Source of the DNA: Beroe forskalii
Taxonomy: Eukaryota > Ctenophora > Nuda > Beroida > Beroidae
Assembly: GCA_011033025.1 (NCBI GenBank)
Contig: WFMF01000638.1
Span: forward strand, 19,608-83,607
Reading direction: 5' to 3'
DNA length: 64,000 bases
The notes under the pieces are model-generated. The model was not told where the DNA came from. It saw only the letters and a program-made list of their open reading frames with translations, and searched no databases. Within the stretch, counting starts at the first letter, position 1. The number at the start of each line of letters is the position of its first letter. Made by a program: the position numbers and the translations under genes. This document shows positions 2,332 to 44,722 of the stretch, one piece after another.

Positions 2332-5300
2332 GTATATAACTTTAACTTTAAACTTTACAACACTACTTCATACAATGAAATTCGAGGATTATATTAGTGG
2401 GAAGTGTGAGAGTTGGATCTGTAATAGATGGATTATACAATTATACCTAGCATCAAGGGAGAGGGGGTCTTCAAATGAATATATGCATCATTTTATTGTA
2501 ACAAGTACAACTACTTTAACTATACTCCAAATAACCTAACTGAGCAATTTCTCAGCGGTGTGCGGTGAGCTTTGGAAGGGAGGTTGCGAAGAGACAAATT
2601 TCCTTCCTGGCCTCACCAGCGAGTACACTGTGAAATCAGAGGGCGTCGATGTGACGGACTGCCGGCAACAATGCGAGAAGATCGAGGATTGTGCACTCTT
2701 TGCAGTGGAGAAAACGCTGAATTTCGATTTGGTTCACTGTCATTTCTTTACTGCAGCAGCGCTGGAGAAGTGTACCTTTAACTACATGCCGGACATCTAT
2801 ACTATGTACAGTGTGACAGAATGCCTTGATCAAAGTAAGTACTTTCCTCTTCTGTTTCCTTTACCTCTTCATTCCACATTCTGTTTTGTTCCAGTTTAAT
2901 GCCAGTCAATGACTGGCAGAACACTGGCAGCCAGTGTTCTTCCAGTCAATAGTTTGGTGAGCAATCAATGTGAGAGAACTTTTTCCACGAGTGAACGAGT
3001 TATTAGGTGTATTTCAAAAGTCAATCAATTCACCATTTCACTCTAGTAAGAGCGTGATTACCAGTAAACTAGTTCATCACACTTTTTATCACATTATTCC
3101 AGTGTACATTGTACATTCTAGCGTACCAAATGTGTAAATAAATCAGTGTGTTTCCTTCAGGTGACGCAAGGACCACTGGAGATTGCTTCAAAGGTGACGG
3201 GTCCTCATACAGAGGGAAAGTTAATACAACTGTAGATGGTTTCACGTGCCAGAAGTGGAGCGAACAATCACCAGTTTCCCATCAGTATACCCCGGAAATG
3301 TACGTATACAAATAGCATGACAGTTTTTAACTAACATTATGGACATGAACCCCCCTTGGGAGTGTAGGACTGTAGGAGTAGTTGGTACCAATACGTCTAC
3401 GCTCTACATACTTATATTGGATGTTTTTCGCATTTCATGCAACGAAGCAACCGGCACAATTCGAATGAGCCAAGTTTGGTACTTTCTAGCACTATAACTT
3501 ACTAGTGGCAATATCCAGTAGTACTATAGCCACCCTTTTGATAAACTTGACTCCCAGGTATCCTGACAGTGGACTTGAGGAGAACTACTGTAGGAACCCG
3601 GACGGAGTGAGGGAGACTCCTTGGTGCCACACGACCAATGGGATGAGAACGACCTCCTGTGGAATTCCACCTTGTGAACTGGAAGCCAGCAGACTTCAGG
3701 GCAACCTTTCCTCAGTCGATGCAACAGGTAAGAGAAGTACCCATATTCCATAATTATCATTTACTGCAAACATCATCGAGGTTTTAATTACCTATACTTA
3801 AAAGCTGTTTTAAATTCTCAATCTTCAGCATCATGAGATCAGAATATTCTTCTTCGTGTATCTATAATGTATTATCAGCATGTTTTATTCTTCTTAGCAT
3901 TATGAATAGTACTGTGTATTTATTTACAGAGCAATCGGTTATAATAACACCATACATGGCACTCCAGTCAAGCGACAGAGGTTAGTGATTTTTTCAAGTT
4001 AATAACAATCTTTATCATCGAGCATTGCTCAGATCAATAATTCCGAATGCCATTGAGTCCAGGGCCCCAGGGGTGGATCTTTAATGGACTTTTTGGGGAT
4101 GGGGGGTCACAACCCCCAAATCTTCTGCTGTGGGGTTGTAGCTAAAGATAGTGGGGTGGTCGATTTCAGTTCTCAAGTTTTCAACGAAAAATTGTAAAAG
4201 AAGTTCGTCTAAAGGTCAGGCTAATTGTCTCCATTTCCCGAAATTTTTACGGGCTTTGCCTTCCTAAAACTCCCACAAGTGGCTCTGCTCCTGGATCCCG
4301 CTGGGGGCTGTGCCTCCAGACCCCTGCCACAGCTCACTAAGTGACGCTGAGCACTGTTTCGCTTACCACGAACCCCCACTCCCCCAGCTTAGGTTCACTC
4401 CTGGATCAAGTCCAAATTTTTATTAAATAAAACTTAATGATAGGAGGCCAGGAGGGTTACTGGGAATGAACCAGAAACCAGCAGGGATAACTCACACAAT
4501 ACATATTCAGGCAGGGGGAGGGGTGTTTCAAATGATAATAGCGAGTACAGCTACGGGCTACGGCAAACTTGACTTTAAAAGAACTTAAGGATGAAATTAT
4601 GAAAAGTGATTAGGTAAGTAATATGTAAACGATCTCTAAGCAATGTTAGTTTCTTGAAAACCAATTTAATTTTCTAACTTCCTAGAGTCCCATTACGCTG
4701 GGTACAGCATGGATGGGGACCCTGCAACGTATTCAAGCACAGAAATAGGACCCAATGAATGGATAGGATACTTGTTTGAGAAGCAGTATCACATTACCTA
4801 TGTTGAAATCATATTTCAAGAGAGGTAATTTACTGAATTGACAATGGAAGTGGTTTGATCTGTAGCATTTAATGAATTTGATGACATGAAACAATAACTG
4901 AACGGCATTTAGATTTTTAACTTTTTAAACGCCTGATAAAAGAAAGATTTTTGTATAGACGTGAACGATCAATCATCAAAGTATTATAATGTAGATTTGG
5001 ATTTTAAATGATTGAATATAGATGGTCAGTTAAAACACCGACTTATTAATCAAATATGATTTCAGTGAGACAGCTATAGCTCTTGGTGAATCAGTGGTAG
5101 ATTATTTGGATGTTATGGCAAGAAAAGACTCGTCGGACAGAGAGTAATTTATTTACTTAAATAGTTTACTTAAAGTGTAAAGCTACTGTTGGGTGGAGAA
5201 GTTTGAAAAGCACTAGGTGTATTTAATTCTCAATTGAATAAAAACAATATATATCTAAATAGAGATTTAGTGGTGAAATACATAAATCTACATGCCAAAT

Positions 5301-13519: not shown

Positions 13520-13612
13520 ATTCAACATACTAACACATACATTTGATCCTGGGACAGAATCTTTGATCCTGGGAGATCCCTTTGATCCTGGGAGAGTCTT
13601 CTTGACCCAGTG
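13520..13612. repeat. TTGATCCTGGGA minisatellite, left part
   Basis: About four units of the form TTTGATCCTGGGAGAGTCTC precede the LINE. The same unit forms the array at 15825-16440 on its other side, so the retrotransposon lies inside a pre-existing minisatellite. Confidence 0.7.
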
Positions 13613-15408
13613 AAAGCCTCAATGGTCCTGCTGATGGCTTTAGTTCTGTGTTTACAAACGAACCATATGGCCCACTGCCTGAATCTTGTTACAAAACACC
13701 TGACAAGATCATTTCTGATGTTAGCATTTCCGAAGAAGATGTGATTAATGAATTGAAGTCTTTGAACATATTCAAAAGCTCAGGTCCAGATAATATACAC
13801 CCTAAGCTGCTGAAAGCCCTTGCTGGAAACCCTGATTTTGTGAAGAGCCTTACAATGCTTTATAATAACTGTATTAGCGAGCAGAAAATTCCTAAATTAT
13901 GGAAAGTTGCAAGTGTCATAAGTCTACACAAGAAAGATGCCAAGACAGATCCTCTCAACTACAGACCTGTATCGTTAACATGCATTCTTTGTAAAATTTA
14001 TGAGAAATTCATTAGGAATCATGTCTTAGACTTTGTGAGGGATGATATAAGTGAACACCAACATGGCTTTATAGACAACAAATCATGTTTATCAAATTTA
14101 TTGGAGACTGTTGATGCCATAATTGAACTTTTAGACTCAGGTTATCCTGTAGATTTGTTTTATTTTGACTTTTGCAAAGCTTTCGACACAGTTCCTCACC
14201 ACAGGCTTCTCACTAAGTTGGAAAATTATGGCATCAAGGGCTCAACATTGTCTATTTTGAGGGATTTTCTTAGTGAAAGATCATTACATACTTGTGTTAG
14301 GGGAAACTATTCATCTCTTAGAAAAGTACTCTCTGGTGTGCCACAGGGCTCAGTTTTGGGTCCCTTGTTATTTATACTGTATATAAATGACCTTCCTGAT
14401 GGTATCAATAATCTCACTAAGTTATTTGCAGATGACATGAAGCTAATTGTGAATGCTGGCAGTAATAACAAAAAAACTGTTAATAGTGATCTTAAATCAC
14501 TTGAAAACTGGGAATCTTTGTGGCTTCTTAGGTTTAATCCTGAAAAATGTAAAGTCATGCACTTTGATTATAATCAGAATCCTATGAATGAATATAGAAT
14601 AGATGGAGTTATTTTAGATAGCGTACAATCTGAAAAAGATCTTGGTGTTGTTGTGAATAATCAATTGAAATGGAATGACAACATAAACTCTTGTATTAAA
14701 GATGCTAATAGAATGATTGCTTGGGTAACTAGAAACATGCTTAATCGTGATCCAGCTATTTTAACACGTATCTATAAGACTATAATAAGACCAAAGTTAG
14801 AGTATTGTGTTCAAATCTGGAATAGGAGTACTTGCCATGGTAATTGGTCAACTATTTTAGAGTTGGAATCTATACAGCGTAGATTTACAAGACTAGTCAA
14901 TGATATTGGACTATTACCCTATAGTGAGCGTTTGAAGAAACTTAATCTTACAACTTTAGGTGAGCGTAGATTAAGAGGTGATCTTATCGAGACTTATAAA
15001 ATCTTAAATGATAAAGTCCAATATGGTGAAAATCTATTTAGACTTGGTAGGTCAGGAAAGAACATTTTGCATAGAAGTGTTAAATCTAATGATTCTGATA
15101 TTTGTAAATTGAGGGCACATTTTCTACCTGAAAGAGTGCGTAATTACTGGAATAAATTACCTAACTACGTTAAGTCTTCTAATGATGTGAATTCATTTAA
15201 GAGTAATTTGGAAGGTTTTAAGAATGAATGTTTGCATGAGAATGATAATAATTATTGGCATGTCTCAAAACTTATATTAGATAAGATTGAAGGAAAAGAT
15301 TATCTACAAAACAAATCAAAGTTTAATAACTTTTTGATGCAAAATATTTTATTGCGAATAGGAAAGGTATTAACACCTATGTCAGACCAAGTAGTATTGA
15401 ATAGTTAG
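13606..15408 (+). CDS. Reverse transcriptase of a 5'-truncated CR1/jockey-like LINE
   Basis: The ORF has no stops for about 600 codons. It encodes the RT of a non-LTR retrotransposon, which copies element RNA into DNA at a nicked target. Visible motifs in order: SSGPDNIHPKLLK and LWKVASVISLHKK (fingers), NYRPVSLTCILCKIYEK, HQHGFIDNKSCLSNLLE, catalytic motif A FDFCKAFDTVPHHRLL, motif B SGVPQGSVLGPLLFILYIND, and motif C LFADDMKLI with the catalytic Asp pair at about 14431-14436. After it come a thumb-like region and a CR1/jockey-type C-terminal tail with RRFTRLVNDI. There is no endonuclease domain; the frame opens abruptly at minisatellite sequence, so the copy is 5'-truncated. The uninterrupted frame suggests recent insertion or continuing selection. 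Confidence 0.88.
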   Translation, partial: PSESLNGPADGFSSVFTNEPYGPLPESCYKTPDKIISDVSISEEDVINELKSLNIFKSSGPDNIHPKLLKALAGNPDFVKSLTMLYNNCISEQKIPKLWKVASVISLHKKDAKTDPLNYRPVSLTCILCKIYEKFIRNHVLDFVRDDISEHQHGFIDNKSCLSNLLETVDAIIELLDSGYPVDLFYFDFCKAFDTVPHHRLLTKLENYGIKGSTLSILRDFLSERSLHTCVRGNYSSLRKVLSGVPQGSVLGPLLFILYINDLPDGINNLTKLFADDMKLIVNAGSNNKKTVNSDLKSLENWESLWLLRFNPEKCKVMHFDYNQNPMNEYRIDGVILDSVQSEKDLGVVVNNQLKWNDNINSCIKDANRMIAWVTRNMLNRDPAILTRIYKTIIRPKLEYCVQIWNRSTCHGNWSTILELESIQRRFTRLVNDIGLLPYSERLKKLNLTTLGERRLRGDLIETYKILNDKVQYGENLFRLGRSGKNILHRSVKSNDSDICKLRAHFLPERVRNYWNKLPNYVKSSNDVNSFKSNLEGFKNECLHENDNNYWHVSKLILDKIEGKDYLQNKSKFNNFLMQNILLRIGKVLTPMSDQVVLNS

Positions 15409-20400: not shown

Positions 20401-23001
20401 TGGCAATGTGGACAGAGAGAGTAAATCTATTTTCTGTGCTTTGGACAGAGATATAGTTGACTCAAACTGTAGTGTGCAGCAGTAAAGGCGGCTTGTCTGG
20501 CCTAACACCCGGACCCCCATTGCTCAGTGAAGTTCACCAAGCCAATGTCACTGAAATGCTGTTCCCAATAAAGCCAGAGCACCCAGTGGGTACCAGTGGC
20601 AACTTGCCGTCGCTATAAGTGGTGTCCCGTGGCCCCAGTGCTGGCAGTGCCCTTAAGGGTACTGTCCCCCTTACTTCCGAGTTTGGGGAACCTACAATAC
20701 AATACAATACAATACCTTCCGTCCTTTGCAGGTTGCCATTTCCAGAATCAACAAATATACGGGATGTGCCCAAGAAGAAAAAAATAAAATATAACATGAT
20801 ATTTCGTTCCAGAGCTGCACTCACCGAGACGTAGTCAAGAGGCACGGACAGCTTGAAGTAGTTGAGACCGTCGTAGTAAAACATGATTCCCTTCTTTGGG
20901 ATGGTGCCCACCAGGGTTTTACCGGCCCTCGTGATGGTCACGGCGCCCCCGCCCAGGCTCAGGTCCTCGCCCGAGGCGACGTTGCGGCTACGACCGTTGT
21001 CGTTGATAACCCAGCCTCTTTCCAGGGAGAATCCGTAGATACGGTCCACGTACATGGTCACGGACCTGCGATAGGGGGCATTATTGTTACAGTAGGGGGT
21101 ATTATTATAGGGGGTATTATTGTTACAGTAGGGGTATCATTATAGGGGGTATTATTGTTACAGTTTAACAATAGGCTATCATTTCGGTCCATATTGTGTG
21201 CATAAAACTCGTCAATTTCAGCGTCTAGAAAACGTTGAAAGCCTTAATTTTTTACAATTTTGAGTCGTATGCTTTTTTCTCATGGTGTTTATAGGTTTAT
21301 AGTTTTCAGCATACAATCCATTTGATTATATTTTAATCTATGAACTACAGTACAGAAGTGCTGTAGTCCGATCAGTCCATATCTCAGGGTTAGTAAAGGG
21401 CAACATAATATGAACCATTATATGTGCATTCATATGCATCGTGCATTCATATACTACGTAAATATGCAAGATCAATATGCAAGATATAATCACACAAGTT
21501 CTCTGACTCACCTGAGGCAGACGCCGGCGTTGTCTTTGCCGCAGATTTCCGTCCGGGCGTACGCAACAAAGACCCCACGACGAGTGTCTTTAGCCATGAG
21601 ATACGGGCAATTTCCTTTGAAGAGATGAGAGGAGGTTACATTTTGAAGGGTAACTTCCATTTTAACAGATGCTGTAACACCCAATGTGCCCCTTAAAAAT
21701 TAATTGAGCCATTTTTCTCTTATTTATGGGCGTTTCAGGTATTCTTAATAATATGCTAGCGGCAATAATAGTCCCCGAACACTAGCAGTCTGGACTCTGG
21801 TATTAAAAGCTTGATCGCTAAGTTTTTCACGTACTTTCATTTAAATATTAAACCTAAAAGCGTAATTATTATTTTTTCCCTTCCAGCCGTAGGGCGGGTG
21901 CTGACCCTCAAATCGGCCAAGAAACAACAGGGCACGATTCGTTTTTCCAGCGGAATAAATACGGCGATTAAATCCCAATTTATTATTCGGTGTTTACCGG
22001 TTCCTGTAAACAGGTAAAAGTGCAGTGAACACCGGGTAAATATATATGCGAATGTTATTTTATCAGTAATCATCCTAACTTTTCAGATCGTCTGGACTTG
22101 GTTTCATGAATTATTATATAATGGTCCGTCGAGGTCTTTACCCGTTACCATAGTTACCATTGTACAGACAGTCCCTTGAAGATCAAAGGACTCGATGATA
22201 GGATAACTAGGGCATGTTAGTAAGCACATAGGATAACGTATATCTTTAGTTAATTGATTTAGTCTGTAATTTATCGTTTCTCTGCACTTATATTGCAGAG
22301 GACGTCTTGTGCACTTGTTGCAGAGGGCGAAGGACCAACAAAACTGACCTGTGACCTGCTCAACGACCAGAAATTTTATTATTTTATCACAATGAAAAGT
22401 GCGGGCGAAAGATATATTTGTTTGGTCTGAATTGGTTCTTTCTTCTGAGGAAACTAAAAATTTAAGAAAAAAGCAAATATTTTGCTCTGTAGACTTTATA
22501 AAAGTGATGCAACTTGTTCTTGTTAGAATATTCTTTCTATCTCTTCCCACTAAACCTTTAGTCTAACCGTGGTTCCATCACAAGTAGAAATAAAATTTAG
22601 CTACTTAAAATGTGAACGCTGAAGCTTACCCTCAGGTCCGTTTGACATTGTGGAATCAGCAGACGATTTGAATGTATCAATGTGTTACAGCGCATTGATT
22701 GGTCAATTGATGTTATGGTGATTTCTGATCCTATAGGTAAGCTAATACGGCACTGATATTACGTTATCATTTTGTTAAATCCTGTTTAGTGAGTTGGGCT
22801 TAGAACTTTTTTTGGTGTTTCTAGGGACCCATAGAAGTACTTTGGTGAAGAAATCGTTTGGTCAATAATTTTTTCCCAGATTGGTCTTGTAGGCCGTAAT
22901 CCTCCCTAACTTATTTCCTTTGAAGGTGAAGTAGTCTCCGTTGAACATTGTCACGTGACCTTCACCTGACATGGAACATCCTGCTTCAGTCGGCTCCACC
23001 T
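17409..23001 (-). CDS. Exons 6-11: von Willebrand D domain and C8-like region
   Basis: Exon 6 (23001-22918) begins the D domain: AGCSMSGEGHVTMFNGDYFT. Exon 7 (21614-21512) continues GNCPYLMAKDTRRGVFVAYA, exon 8 (21065-20825) SVTMYVDRIYGFSLERGW and YYDGLNYFKLSVPLDYVS. Exon 9 (18798-18602) has DFTGFCGPVPVD, the usual closing G-x-C-G of a D domain. Exon 10 (18185-17998) is Cys-rich (DACSCADTSNNNYCFCNVLY, then ECRQAGVKIT), matching a C8 region. Exon 11 is a 26-nt terminal exon (EFRRWKKN, stop). If exon 10 read through instead, it would stop at ENYML. Confidence 0.75.
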
Positions 23002-26000
23002 CTGCCAAAACAAACACAAGTTAGATAGGTATTCGGTCATTTGGCCTAACTGGACAAGTTAGGCCAAAACAAACAAGTTAAATTGACGACGATAATCACA
23101 AGATCCTGATTTTAAACTATTGAACGTTTTAACTTGCTTCTAATTAGAGAGATGCTTGTCAATCGTCATTATTGATAAAGCTGCCGTGGTGTCACCCGTT
23201 GATGCTAGGATAAAAGATGCTGAAAAATATGACTGATGATTGTTTTACTACCTTTCAGAATTGTTTACTCTTTACAAATTGCACCCCCATGCAGGCAAGA
23301 AAAGCTTTCAGTTTCAGATCTTTCTGGTCTTTATAACCTATACTATGTCACATGATATGCCACAAAGTGCCATAAGGGAGGGATGATGGTGTCTGAATTG
23401 TCCCAAACTCAATACATTTGATTGGGGCAGGAACACTTGGGACAGTGACATCCCCTCCCCTATAAGTAATTTCTACCCAAAAAACGCAGTGCTACAAACA
23501 CGCGTATGATAGATGATCTGACAAGCAATCCGATAATTCTAAGATCCTCAAATGTAAACAACCCTCTAAAATGAAAAAATCCCGAGGTAATAGAGTAAAC
23601 AGTAGGTAAACATCCCAAAATTAAGTAAATCATGAATCACTTTTTTGACCCAAAAATCCCAATTCAAATTATTTGCCAATGATGAATTATTTGCTAGAAG
23701 TACATACCACGAAAGATGAGCCGTCCTACGAGAGTTAAAATGATTAACGTTGAAGCTTTACGATTTATTTCAAAGATTGATAGCTCCGCACATTTCTTTG
23801 ACCGTGATTATTCAAACCTAAGAAAATATTGAGAATTTCTCTTACCGTCTGCACAGGCGCCTTCTGTAATTTCCTCGCCGATGTAATTTCCCATTCTACA
23901 CTCTGCCCGCTCGAGATGACACATGCTGAAAAGTTATTAAATATCTTAGTGATATTCAAGTAAATTCTTTCAATCGTCAATGACGTTGCACTGTGATTAA
24001 GGTATTTTTGATGAAATATGATTTATAGGTTCTAGTGGTTATTTCAGGGCATGAAACCTTGGAATGGCGTTTTTTGTCCAAGGGGTGGGTTAAAATAGTC
24101 AAAAATGTTTCGTTAAAATGTCGCTTGAATTTCAAAATACCGGTAAAAGTCCTGTTTGAAAAGTCCGGCTAAATAAAGCCATGTTTAGGTACCTGCCGTA
24201 GGTGATGCCTCCTGCGCAAACCGGTGCGTCCTCACTACACTCGAAGTCACAGGAACAGATGTCCGTGCCCTTGTGGTTGAGGCACTTCTCCCGGAACCCG
24301 CAAACCACTCCTTCACAGGGGTCAGTGAGGGAATTTGTAGGAGTTTGGGGTTTTAGGGTTATTTTAGGTACAGGTCTGGGAGGGAGTTTGTAGGATTTTG
24401 GGTTTTAGGGTTATTTTGGGTTCAGGTATGAGAGGGAATTTGTAGGAGTTGTTTGGGTTTTAAGGGTTATTTTCGGCTAGAGGAACAGCCAATTCGAGGA
24501 ATTTGTAGCTTTTGTTTGGGTTTTAGGGTTATTTTGGGTAGGTATATCATGTTCATACTCTATTCGAGAACATTCGCAAGTTCAACAAGAACTTGTCGAA
24601 ATTAAATCTAGCACACAGAAGAAAATGAACCAAATTACCCAGATATTTATGAATTCGATCCCCTATTCCCCTACAATTAATTTGTAAACACAACCCACAA
24701 AACACGCTTACCAGTGAGGCTAAGTTCTCCTGAAGACACGATCACACTCCCATCCACCGACTCCCCTGACACTTGTAAATACCGGAGTGGTGCTGCTCCA
24801 CTTCGTTTATCACGTGGACTATCTTCAGTTTGGTGGGGTCTTCGGGATCATACACTCTGCGAAGGCAAGGGGTTATGAATTACGTGATAGTAAGAAGTGC
24901 AGTTTTGTGTGCGCGGCGTAAGTTTGCGCGGCGTAAAGTCATAAATAACATGTATGTACAAAACTTACATTCACACAGACACACGAAACTTTCGTACACA
25001 CAGACACATAAAACCTACATACACACTGATACAAACCAAACTTGCATACACGCAGAAACACACAAAATTTACACCCATACTTACAAATAAAACTTACATT
25101 CACACCGACGCACAAAACGTACATACACACAGACACACATACACACAAAAGGGGGGGGGGCCAACGTAATTTTTGTACATTTTTGTACATACTAATTTTT
25201 GTACACTTTCAGATTTACTGGGTAAAAATGTACAAGAATGTACAAAGATGTACAAAAATGTACAAATCTATCTCGGCCCAAGAAGGTGGAATACAGACTT
25301 GGTTTTCAACTTTATATGTTCACAATGGTCATGCTCATATACGACTTGTTGATAAACATAGGCCCTAAAGTGTTTGTATGTTGAGTTATGGACATGGAGT
25401 GTACGCGCAACCCATATTCTCATATTGTAATATCAAGAAAGTCGAGACTTGGCCGGGTCGCCAGCGCCAGTCTCATCGCCTTTCTTTTCAATCATCTAAA
25501 TCTTATCGGACTTCGTTGACAAAACTCCTAAGTCCTATACAACTTAGGTGCCGGGTTGGTAATAAGTCGGCACACCCCTTCTTCAAGGAAACAATAGAAG
25601 TTGGTGGAAAATCGTTTGGCAAAGTTAATATTAATTGATCTAAATATGCAGTACCTACTGCGATTGAATTTAGTGATGAAATTAATATCAAACTGTTTAA
25701 TCACCATGATCTCATGATGTCAGAAGAAAGTTGCCTGCCGGAGCCCGGAGGCATTTTGACAATTGGTTGAGGAATGAGGTTCCTGGGTGGAACCAGGGAG
25801 TTTCTCATATCTTTGACCTGTGTCCTGTCCTAGACCCGTTCTAGACAGGGAATTTTGAGGAGCTATTGCTCGAGCAATTGCTCGAGCAATTGCTCGAGCA
25901 AGCCTGTCTAGAATGGGGTTTTTCGCTTGCCCGAGCTATTGCTCGAGCAATAGCTCGGGTAATAGTTGGAGGTATTACCCGAGCAATTGCTCGAGCAATA

Positions 26001-41684: not shown

Positions 41685-44722
<3,038 letters not shown>

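Follow-up and report, generated by a model that had tools for sequence, protein, structure and literature searches.

The window, the whole stretch of 64,000 nucleotides that was analysed (G000:C734:19608-83607), carries a gene on its minus strand whose domains follow one another in the order Kazal_2, VWD and C8. The second half of the Kazal_2 domain is encoded by an exon at 23846-23925 that ends at a GT donor (GACG|GTAAGAG). It is followed by two predicted exons, namely an 84-nt exon (22918-23001) encoding the N-terminal portion of the VWD domain (CSMSGEGHVTMFNGDYFTFKG) and the exon NCPYLMAKDTRRGVFVAYARTEICGKDNAGVCLR (21512-21614), and by a next VWD exon (20825-21065) with a CAG acceptor before it and a GT donor after it. 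The other definable junctions of the gene join GT donors to AG acceptors (CAG|GTACCT to TTTTCAG|CATG, GACG|GTAAGAG to GGCAG|AGGTGG, and CTCAG|GTGAGT to CGCAG|GTCCG), the joined exons contain no stop codon, and the stretches that were read show ordinary splice sites and no further defect. On the plus strand, a 600-codon open frame at 13606-15405 resembles a non-LTR reverse transcriptase, and exons at 2540-3750 resemble PAN and kringle domains, both as judged by eye.

A VWD exon interrupted between two copies of a 13-bp repeat

The VWD reading is broken within an exact 13-bp direct repeat, CTTCAAAGGAAAT. On the minus strand, copy 1 (22913-22925) closes the upstream coding stretch and copy 2 (21610-21622) opens the downstream one, at a spacing of 1303 bp and with 1290 bp (21623-22912) between them. 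The upstream coding end reads ...GACTACTTCACCTTCAAAGGAAAT and runs on into AAGTTAGGGAGG..., and 1303 bp later the sequence reads ...CCTCCTCTCATCTCTTCAAAGGAAATTGCCCGTATCTC. Only after removal of these 1303 bp is the reading continuous, as the preliminary description had stated: the joined flanks give CSMSGEGHVTMFNGDYFTFKGN-CPYLMAKD..., a VWD domain scoring 53.8 bits in Pfam (E 3.7e-14); its alignment to the D domains of IgGFc-binding protein and mucin-2 shows no gap where the flanks meet. Any 13-bp direct repeat was present in 26 of 1000 first-order resampled regions of equal size, and the chance of a repeat falling exactly at both coding ends is negligible (1.5e-8, assuming two fixed places and uniform bases). 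The repeat allows 14 equivalent junctions (CT-CT, TT-TC, TC-CT, CA-TT, AA-TC, AA-CA, AG-AA, GG-AA, GA-AG, AA-GG, AA-GA, AT-AA, TA-AA and AA-AT), none of which is GT-AG, GC-AG or AT-AC, in agreement with the earlier reading that no GT-AG pair lies within it.

A genome search with the Pfam VWD model listed 51 matches, and 33 loci were read (30, plus three fetched later). Three of these held the C-terminal half only and one (L088) was missed by the search pattern, leaving 29 copies that span the corresponding G-x-C site. None of the 29 readable copies (20 + 9) is interrupted there, indicating that the 1290 bp are derived; among the VWD copies read, the interruption is peculiar to this gene. As for the marks of a neointron, the site is empty elsewhere in these 29 copies, which are paralogous and not orthologous, and a direct repeat of exon sequence stands at opposite ends. 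Neither a close second copy of the gene nor an empty allele was found in the assembly, where the remaining four of seven matches have 28-37% identity. The repeat behaves like a target duplication, as had been suggested before, and an insertion that duplicated its target is very probable.

Composition and origin of the inserted DNA

At its 5' end the insert has 121 bp (22791-22911, minus strand) that match the ends of a transposon family with inverted repeats and TA flanks, 31 ends in all at 76-97% identity (best match 97% over 92 bp). Of 38 alignment rows, 30 end at query base 135, although a given place can appear in two rows. At the four loci checked (L009, L010, L011 and L012), elements of this family are ~3 kb long, with inverted arms of 485-718 bp and TA-flanked termini AGTTAGGGA, also given as AGTTAGGGAG. 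TA precedes GTTAGG at 26 of the 30 recognisable ends among the 31, and one of the four ends lacking it (L025) was a wrong pick by the end-finding pattern. At the start of the insert the window reads AAATAAGTTAGG, that is, TA plus one extra A, as at L025 and L028. A TA flank on the 5' side of the insert is therefore still conceivable; the empty coding site has no TA.

A second piece of ~140 bp (22623-22762, minus strand) weakly matches five other places in the genome at 65-85%. The preliminary description had proposed a search for further copies, and this gave a divided answer: the 121-bp end recurs, whereas no second copy of the whole insert turned up in the assembly. With the whole insert, its left 411 bp and its middle 801 bp used separately against 216 Mb in 1134 contigs, a search that skips very common words, no further copy was found beyond the 121-bp and 140-bp pieces. 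Comparison of the insert with the interiors of the family loci gave nothing past the end piece (E 0.01), and no transposase was recognised by eye at 12 family loci. The seven open frames of the insert gave only three Pfam matches, all below the curated cut-off. Rfam and tRNA searches returned no match, and self-complementarity of the insert was not notable among the matches listed.

Transposition by this family was considered as the cause of the insertion and rejected. Only one family end is present, the duplication is 13 bp and not TA, and the empty coding site lacks TA; the last two points imply that the family's transposition did not make the insertion and that a family fragment was carried in. 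As an insertion mechanism, we infer that the best fit is a staggered break filled with captured DNA. The earlier account had offered three options, a non-canonical intron, an intron born from a transposon and a disrupting insertion. This was the right set, and a transposon end is indeed present, but the 13-bp repeat is not the TA duplication of that family.

Candidate splice sites and the splicing background

Only one of the 14 slides has an AG acceptor, the GA-AG pair AAAG|GAAATAAG...CTTCAAAG|GAAAT. It defines a candidate phase 1 intron of 1303 nt at 21615-22917 (minus strand), with a candidate GA donor after the eighth base of copy 1, a candidate AG acceptor after the eighth base of copy 2, and an exon join CTTCAAAG|GAAATTGC. 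The acceptor region (21615-21640, minus strand) reads TGTAACCTCCTCTCATCTCTTCAAAG, pyrimidine-rich and then AG. The donor AAAG|GAAATA is preceded by AG and carries A at +3, as published GA donors do. In the copepod Eurytemora affinis, the text available from PMC5714493 gives GA and GG donors for ~12% of introns in the genes studied, with AG obligate before the donor and A nearly always at +3, and passages of PMC7072748 describe the AG before and the A after GA as conserved in GA donors of both Eurytemora and Oikopleura. New introns of Oikopleura are often non-canonical, mainly GA-AG, in the portion of PMC4202315 concerned with them, and for introners part of PMC9860276 states that both splice sites may come from the target and that GA donors reach up to 40% in some families. 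At the level of sequence, and not of RNA, the insert thus has a GA donor, an AG acceptor and an unchanged predicted mRNA.

Taken together, these features suggest the following course. A piece of 1290 bp very probably entered an uninterrupted VWD exon and duplicated a 13-bp target, either by the filling and sealing of a staggered break with captured DNA or by transposition of some element. The target holds the proto-splice sequence AAAG|GAAAT. Its downstream copy, placed after the pyrimidine-rich end of the insert, could then serve as a good AG acceptor, and its upstream copy as the matching donor AAAG|GA. Spliced in this way, the insert would be removed precisely from the pre-mRNA as a GA-AG intron with both splice sites drawn from duplicated exon, and the VWD domain would be kept whole.

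Splicing could instead use GT-AG sites and yield an altered protein. The nearest GT, at 22910 (AATAA|GTTAGG), is off-frame with the acceptor AAAG|GAAAT, as the preliminary description held, but 17 other GT-AG pairs are in frame and free of stops when donors are sought in the exon and the first 90 nt of the insert, and acceptors in the last 150 nt ahead of copy 2 and onward to the end of the exon. The best donor of the set is the cryptic exonic site CAG|GTGAAG (22960-22968, minus strand; GT at 22965-22964), which agrees with the consensus at 7 of 9 positions and, joined in frame to the AAAG acceptor, would drop 16 residues; skipping of the 84-nt exon (-28 residues) would run from phase 1 to phase 1 and keep the frame, and an acceptor inside the insert could also be used. 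All 17 pairs would change the domain, by -47 to +28 residues. Most of them would remove or replace residues where the VWD domain begins (CSMSGEGHVTMFNGDYFTFKG); the sole one that keeps these would add 28 residues in mid-domain, into a stretch that aligns throughout to D domains of known structure and is uninterrupted in 29 of 29 other copies. Such an altered product is unlikely.

The background against which a GA donor would have to operate was surveyed in conserved genes, where 44 of 46 introns proved to be GT-AG: 34 of 35 in tubulins (18/19 and 16/16), 8 of 8 in Ras-type GTPases and, by eye, 2 of 3 in centrin. Apart from centrin, conserved proteins were aligned to genomic pieces with a spliced aligner that gives GT-AG a bonus of 5. 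Only the first tubulin set was also aligned without the bonus; there 9 of 19 introns fell on a slide with GT-AG, compared with 18 of 19 with it. The bonus thus favours GT-AG, and the aligner places junctions only to within a few residues. Alignments of the second tubulin set and of the Ras set all included the bonus. The samples comprised 23 stretches out of 71 tubulin matches and 6 out of 149 Ras matches, picked for short introns. L108 was excluded from the tubulin count (20/29 residues, unaligned, with the sole junction TT-AC), L105 was counted despite having 56 of 144 residues identical, and the near-identical copies L095/L103 and L109/L110 mean that the 46 introns are not all independent. 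Spliced alignments of the VWD paralogues (15/45 GT-AG) were dropped, as identity was mostly 36-65% and many junctions lay in unaligned sequence; a PF00149 search yielded few conserved multi-exon genes and was not used. Two exceptions in 46, set against 0.577% for the 'others' class of animal introns in a table of PMC7072748, give a binomial P of 0.03, which for a small sample that is not fully independent, with one case met through the shared window, is only a hint of a raised non-GT-AG rate.

The first exception is an alpha-tubulin intron (L089, G000:C547:105500-106520, minus strand) at the conserved position ITGK|EDAANN. It reads AAAG|GAAGACACTT...CAG|GAAGATGC, GA-AG (or AC-AG), and its donor, AAAG|GAAGAC...AG|GAAGATGC, again presents AG|GAA. 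This second AG|GAA...AG candidate supports the use of GA donors, and the gene may be a decaying copy. Its paralogues have GT at this position, except for L098, in which GT follows 4 nt later, behind 4 nt of the downstream exon. Another alpha-tubulin locus (L101, G000:C401:111240-112550, minus strand) carries a second copy of the final 14 nt of its upstream exon (TCATCACTGGAAAG) just inside the intron's 3' end, ahead of the acceptor. The edges in L101 and L098 look like overwriting by spliced or intronless sequence.

These tubulin edges bear on a further origin for the VWD interruption, in which an older GT-AG intron was converted when spliced sequence, cDNA-like or from an intronless paralogue, overwrote both of its edges. 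The donor would then be covered by 5 nt copied from the downstream exon, and 8 nt from the upstream exon would stand ahead of the acceptor. Tubulins show similar edges: L101 has 14 nt repeated ahead of its acceptor, and in L089 and L098 the upstream exon runs straight into the first 4-5 nt of the downstream one. Such a conversion is very improbable, given that no intron lies at this position in any of the 29 other VWD copies read and that two separate edge events would be needed in place of one insertion.

The second exception lies in the same window, in intron 3 of a centrin gene (41789-42337, minus strand), which is AT-AG (CAG|ATGAGTATAG ... TTTCAG|ATGAG) and has the 8-bp repeat CAGATGAG at both ends. 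The donor GACAG|ATGAGTATAG and the acceptor TTTCAG|ATGAGGAG enclose a minisatellite-like array, and the donor CAG|ATGAGT equals a consensus donor with G changed to A at +1. Since its predicted product is close to Centrin-2 and Caltractin chains in the Protein Data Bank, the gene is probably functional; besides its own four exons, the other 42 of 46 genome matches are all at or below 59% identity.

A U1 snRNA variant with C8 changed to U, of a kind discussed for GA and AT donors in part of PMC7072748, was absent from the 10 U1 genes inspected. At least 10 U1 genes were found (41 of 3781 candidates scored), with C8 kept in 10 of 10 and a 5' end of ATACTTACCTG in eight and ATACTAACCTG in two. The two with ATACTAACCTG in place of ATACTTACCTG, L076 and L084, would pair better with GTTAGT donors.

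The rule of GT-AG (44/46), together with there being one assembly at hand, also lends weight to a disrupting insertion, in which the insert is not precisely removed and the allele, broken or heterozygous, belongs to a non-essential gene. Read-through would then add KLGRITAYKTNLGKNY and reach a stop after 16 foreign codons. This is fairly unlikely: the stretches of the gene that were read have ordinary splice sites and no other defect, and a search of the assembly found no empty allele. How far the insert has diverged from its relatives does not date the insertion, so age does not decide between the readings. For the favoured reading, precise GA-AG splicing with splice sites supplied by the duplicated AG|GA target, we arrive at a probability of about 0.48. 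Against real use of the GA donor stand the 44 of 46 GT-AG introns, which indicate that the splicing machinery is not broadly relaxed, the unchanged C8 of U1, and the in-frame GT-AG alternatives, one of which has a better donor.

Comparison with known systems

Euglenid non-conventional introns carry direct repeats at their ends and show strong pairing of both ends. The preliminary description had drawn this parallel from a weak complementarity of the insert ends, and neither point held up. The ends form a 17-nt imperfect pairing hardly above chance, since 81 of 2000 random 20-mer pairs from the insert (and 576 of 2000 for 40-mers) score as high; U1 and U12 snRNA genes are present in the genome, as are ordinary GT-AG introns; and the host is animal-like in its Kazal-VWD-C8 gene and its mitochondrial code. 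U12-type introns have a ATATCCTT or GTATCCTT donor and a TTCCTTAAC branch site, and this class was set aside because none of these was seen by eye at the insert ends. Group I and II self-splicing introns were likewise discarded, no Rfam covariance match being obtained to E 1 in 21500-23050.

The code was read from a 13.3-kb contig (C1134) bearing a very diverged cox1, in which TGA must be a residue for read-through and AGA stands at three places where what we take to be conserved cox1 motifs want Arg. G+C is 20% over 2.8 kb around cox1, and in the first 10 kb of the contig ARAGORN, run with bacterial settings, detected no tRNA; ctenophore mitochondria have lost most tRNAs. A code of this kind is used by ctenophore mitochondria, according to a section of PMC6991124. 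The host is thus probably a ctenophore.

With the TA-targeting inverted-repeat family the insert shares its first 121 bp, but it has no second end and no TA duplication. Introner elements of the dinoflagellate Amoebophrya, as portrayed in part of PMC7789003, have 3-5 nt repeats and 8-20 nt inverted repeats that form a hairpin, features seen in 11-30% of the many non-canonical introns of that organism. They resemble the present locus in repeats across exon-intron borders and in non-GT-AG sites, whereas here the repeat is 13 bp, terminal pairing is weak and there is one case. Introners in general, which the text seen of PMC9860276 describes as multi-copy families with target duplications of 3-9 bp, are similar in the target duplication, the transposon end inside, the target-derived splice sites and, for some families, the GA donors; they differ in repeat length (13 bp here) and in copy number, no other copy having been found here. 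Assignment of the insert to an introner family was rejected on this account, as only the 121-bp end and the weak 140-bp piece recur elsewhere and the rest gave no second copy in the assembly.

New introns of Daphnia are attributed in part of PMC4202315 to the repair of staggered double-strand breaks that leaves direct repeats of 4-12 bp. Like the insert, these neointrons have direct repeats of exon sequence at opposite ends (13 bp here), but nearly all of them have canonical splice sites, whereas the repeat here offers no GT-AG.

If the insert is spliced, the locus would be a snapshot of intron birth in which the inserted DNA, the duplicated target and the origin of the splice sites can still be read. 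The range of GA-AG introns gained by insertion would then reach an early-branching animal lineage, probably that of ctenophores, for which no such case appeared among the 12 of 322 papers that a literature search listed, and the locus would test a wide animal tolerance of GA donors against one confined to larvaceans and copepods. If it is not spliced, an ordinary insertion allele would be at hand. A broader proposition, that in this probably ctenophore lineage introns are gained by insertion at AG|GA targets, with both splice sites supplied by the duplicated target, and born GA-AG with the mRNA unchanged, and that an unaltered U1 tolerates GA and AT donors at low frequency (tubulin, centrin and the VWD gene), is quite doubtful.

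The closest counterparts are the GA introns of Eurytemora and Oikopleura, which have in common with the candidate a GA donor preceded by AG, an A at +3, an AG acceptor, an animal host and a description as recently gained. In Eurytemora, GA and GG donors account for ~12% of the introns studied and have the support of RNA reads, compared with one candidate here plus one in alpha-tubulin, both predicted from genomic DNA and with U1 C8 unchanged. GA-AG introns and new introns with target repeats are already known; this example stands out for its host lineage and its neatness.
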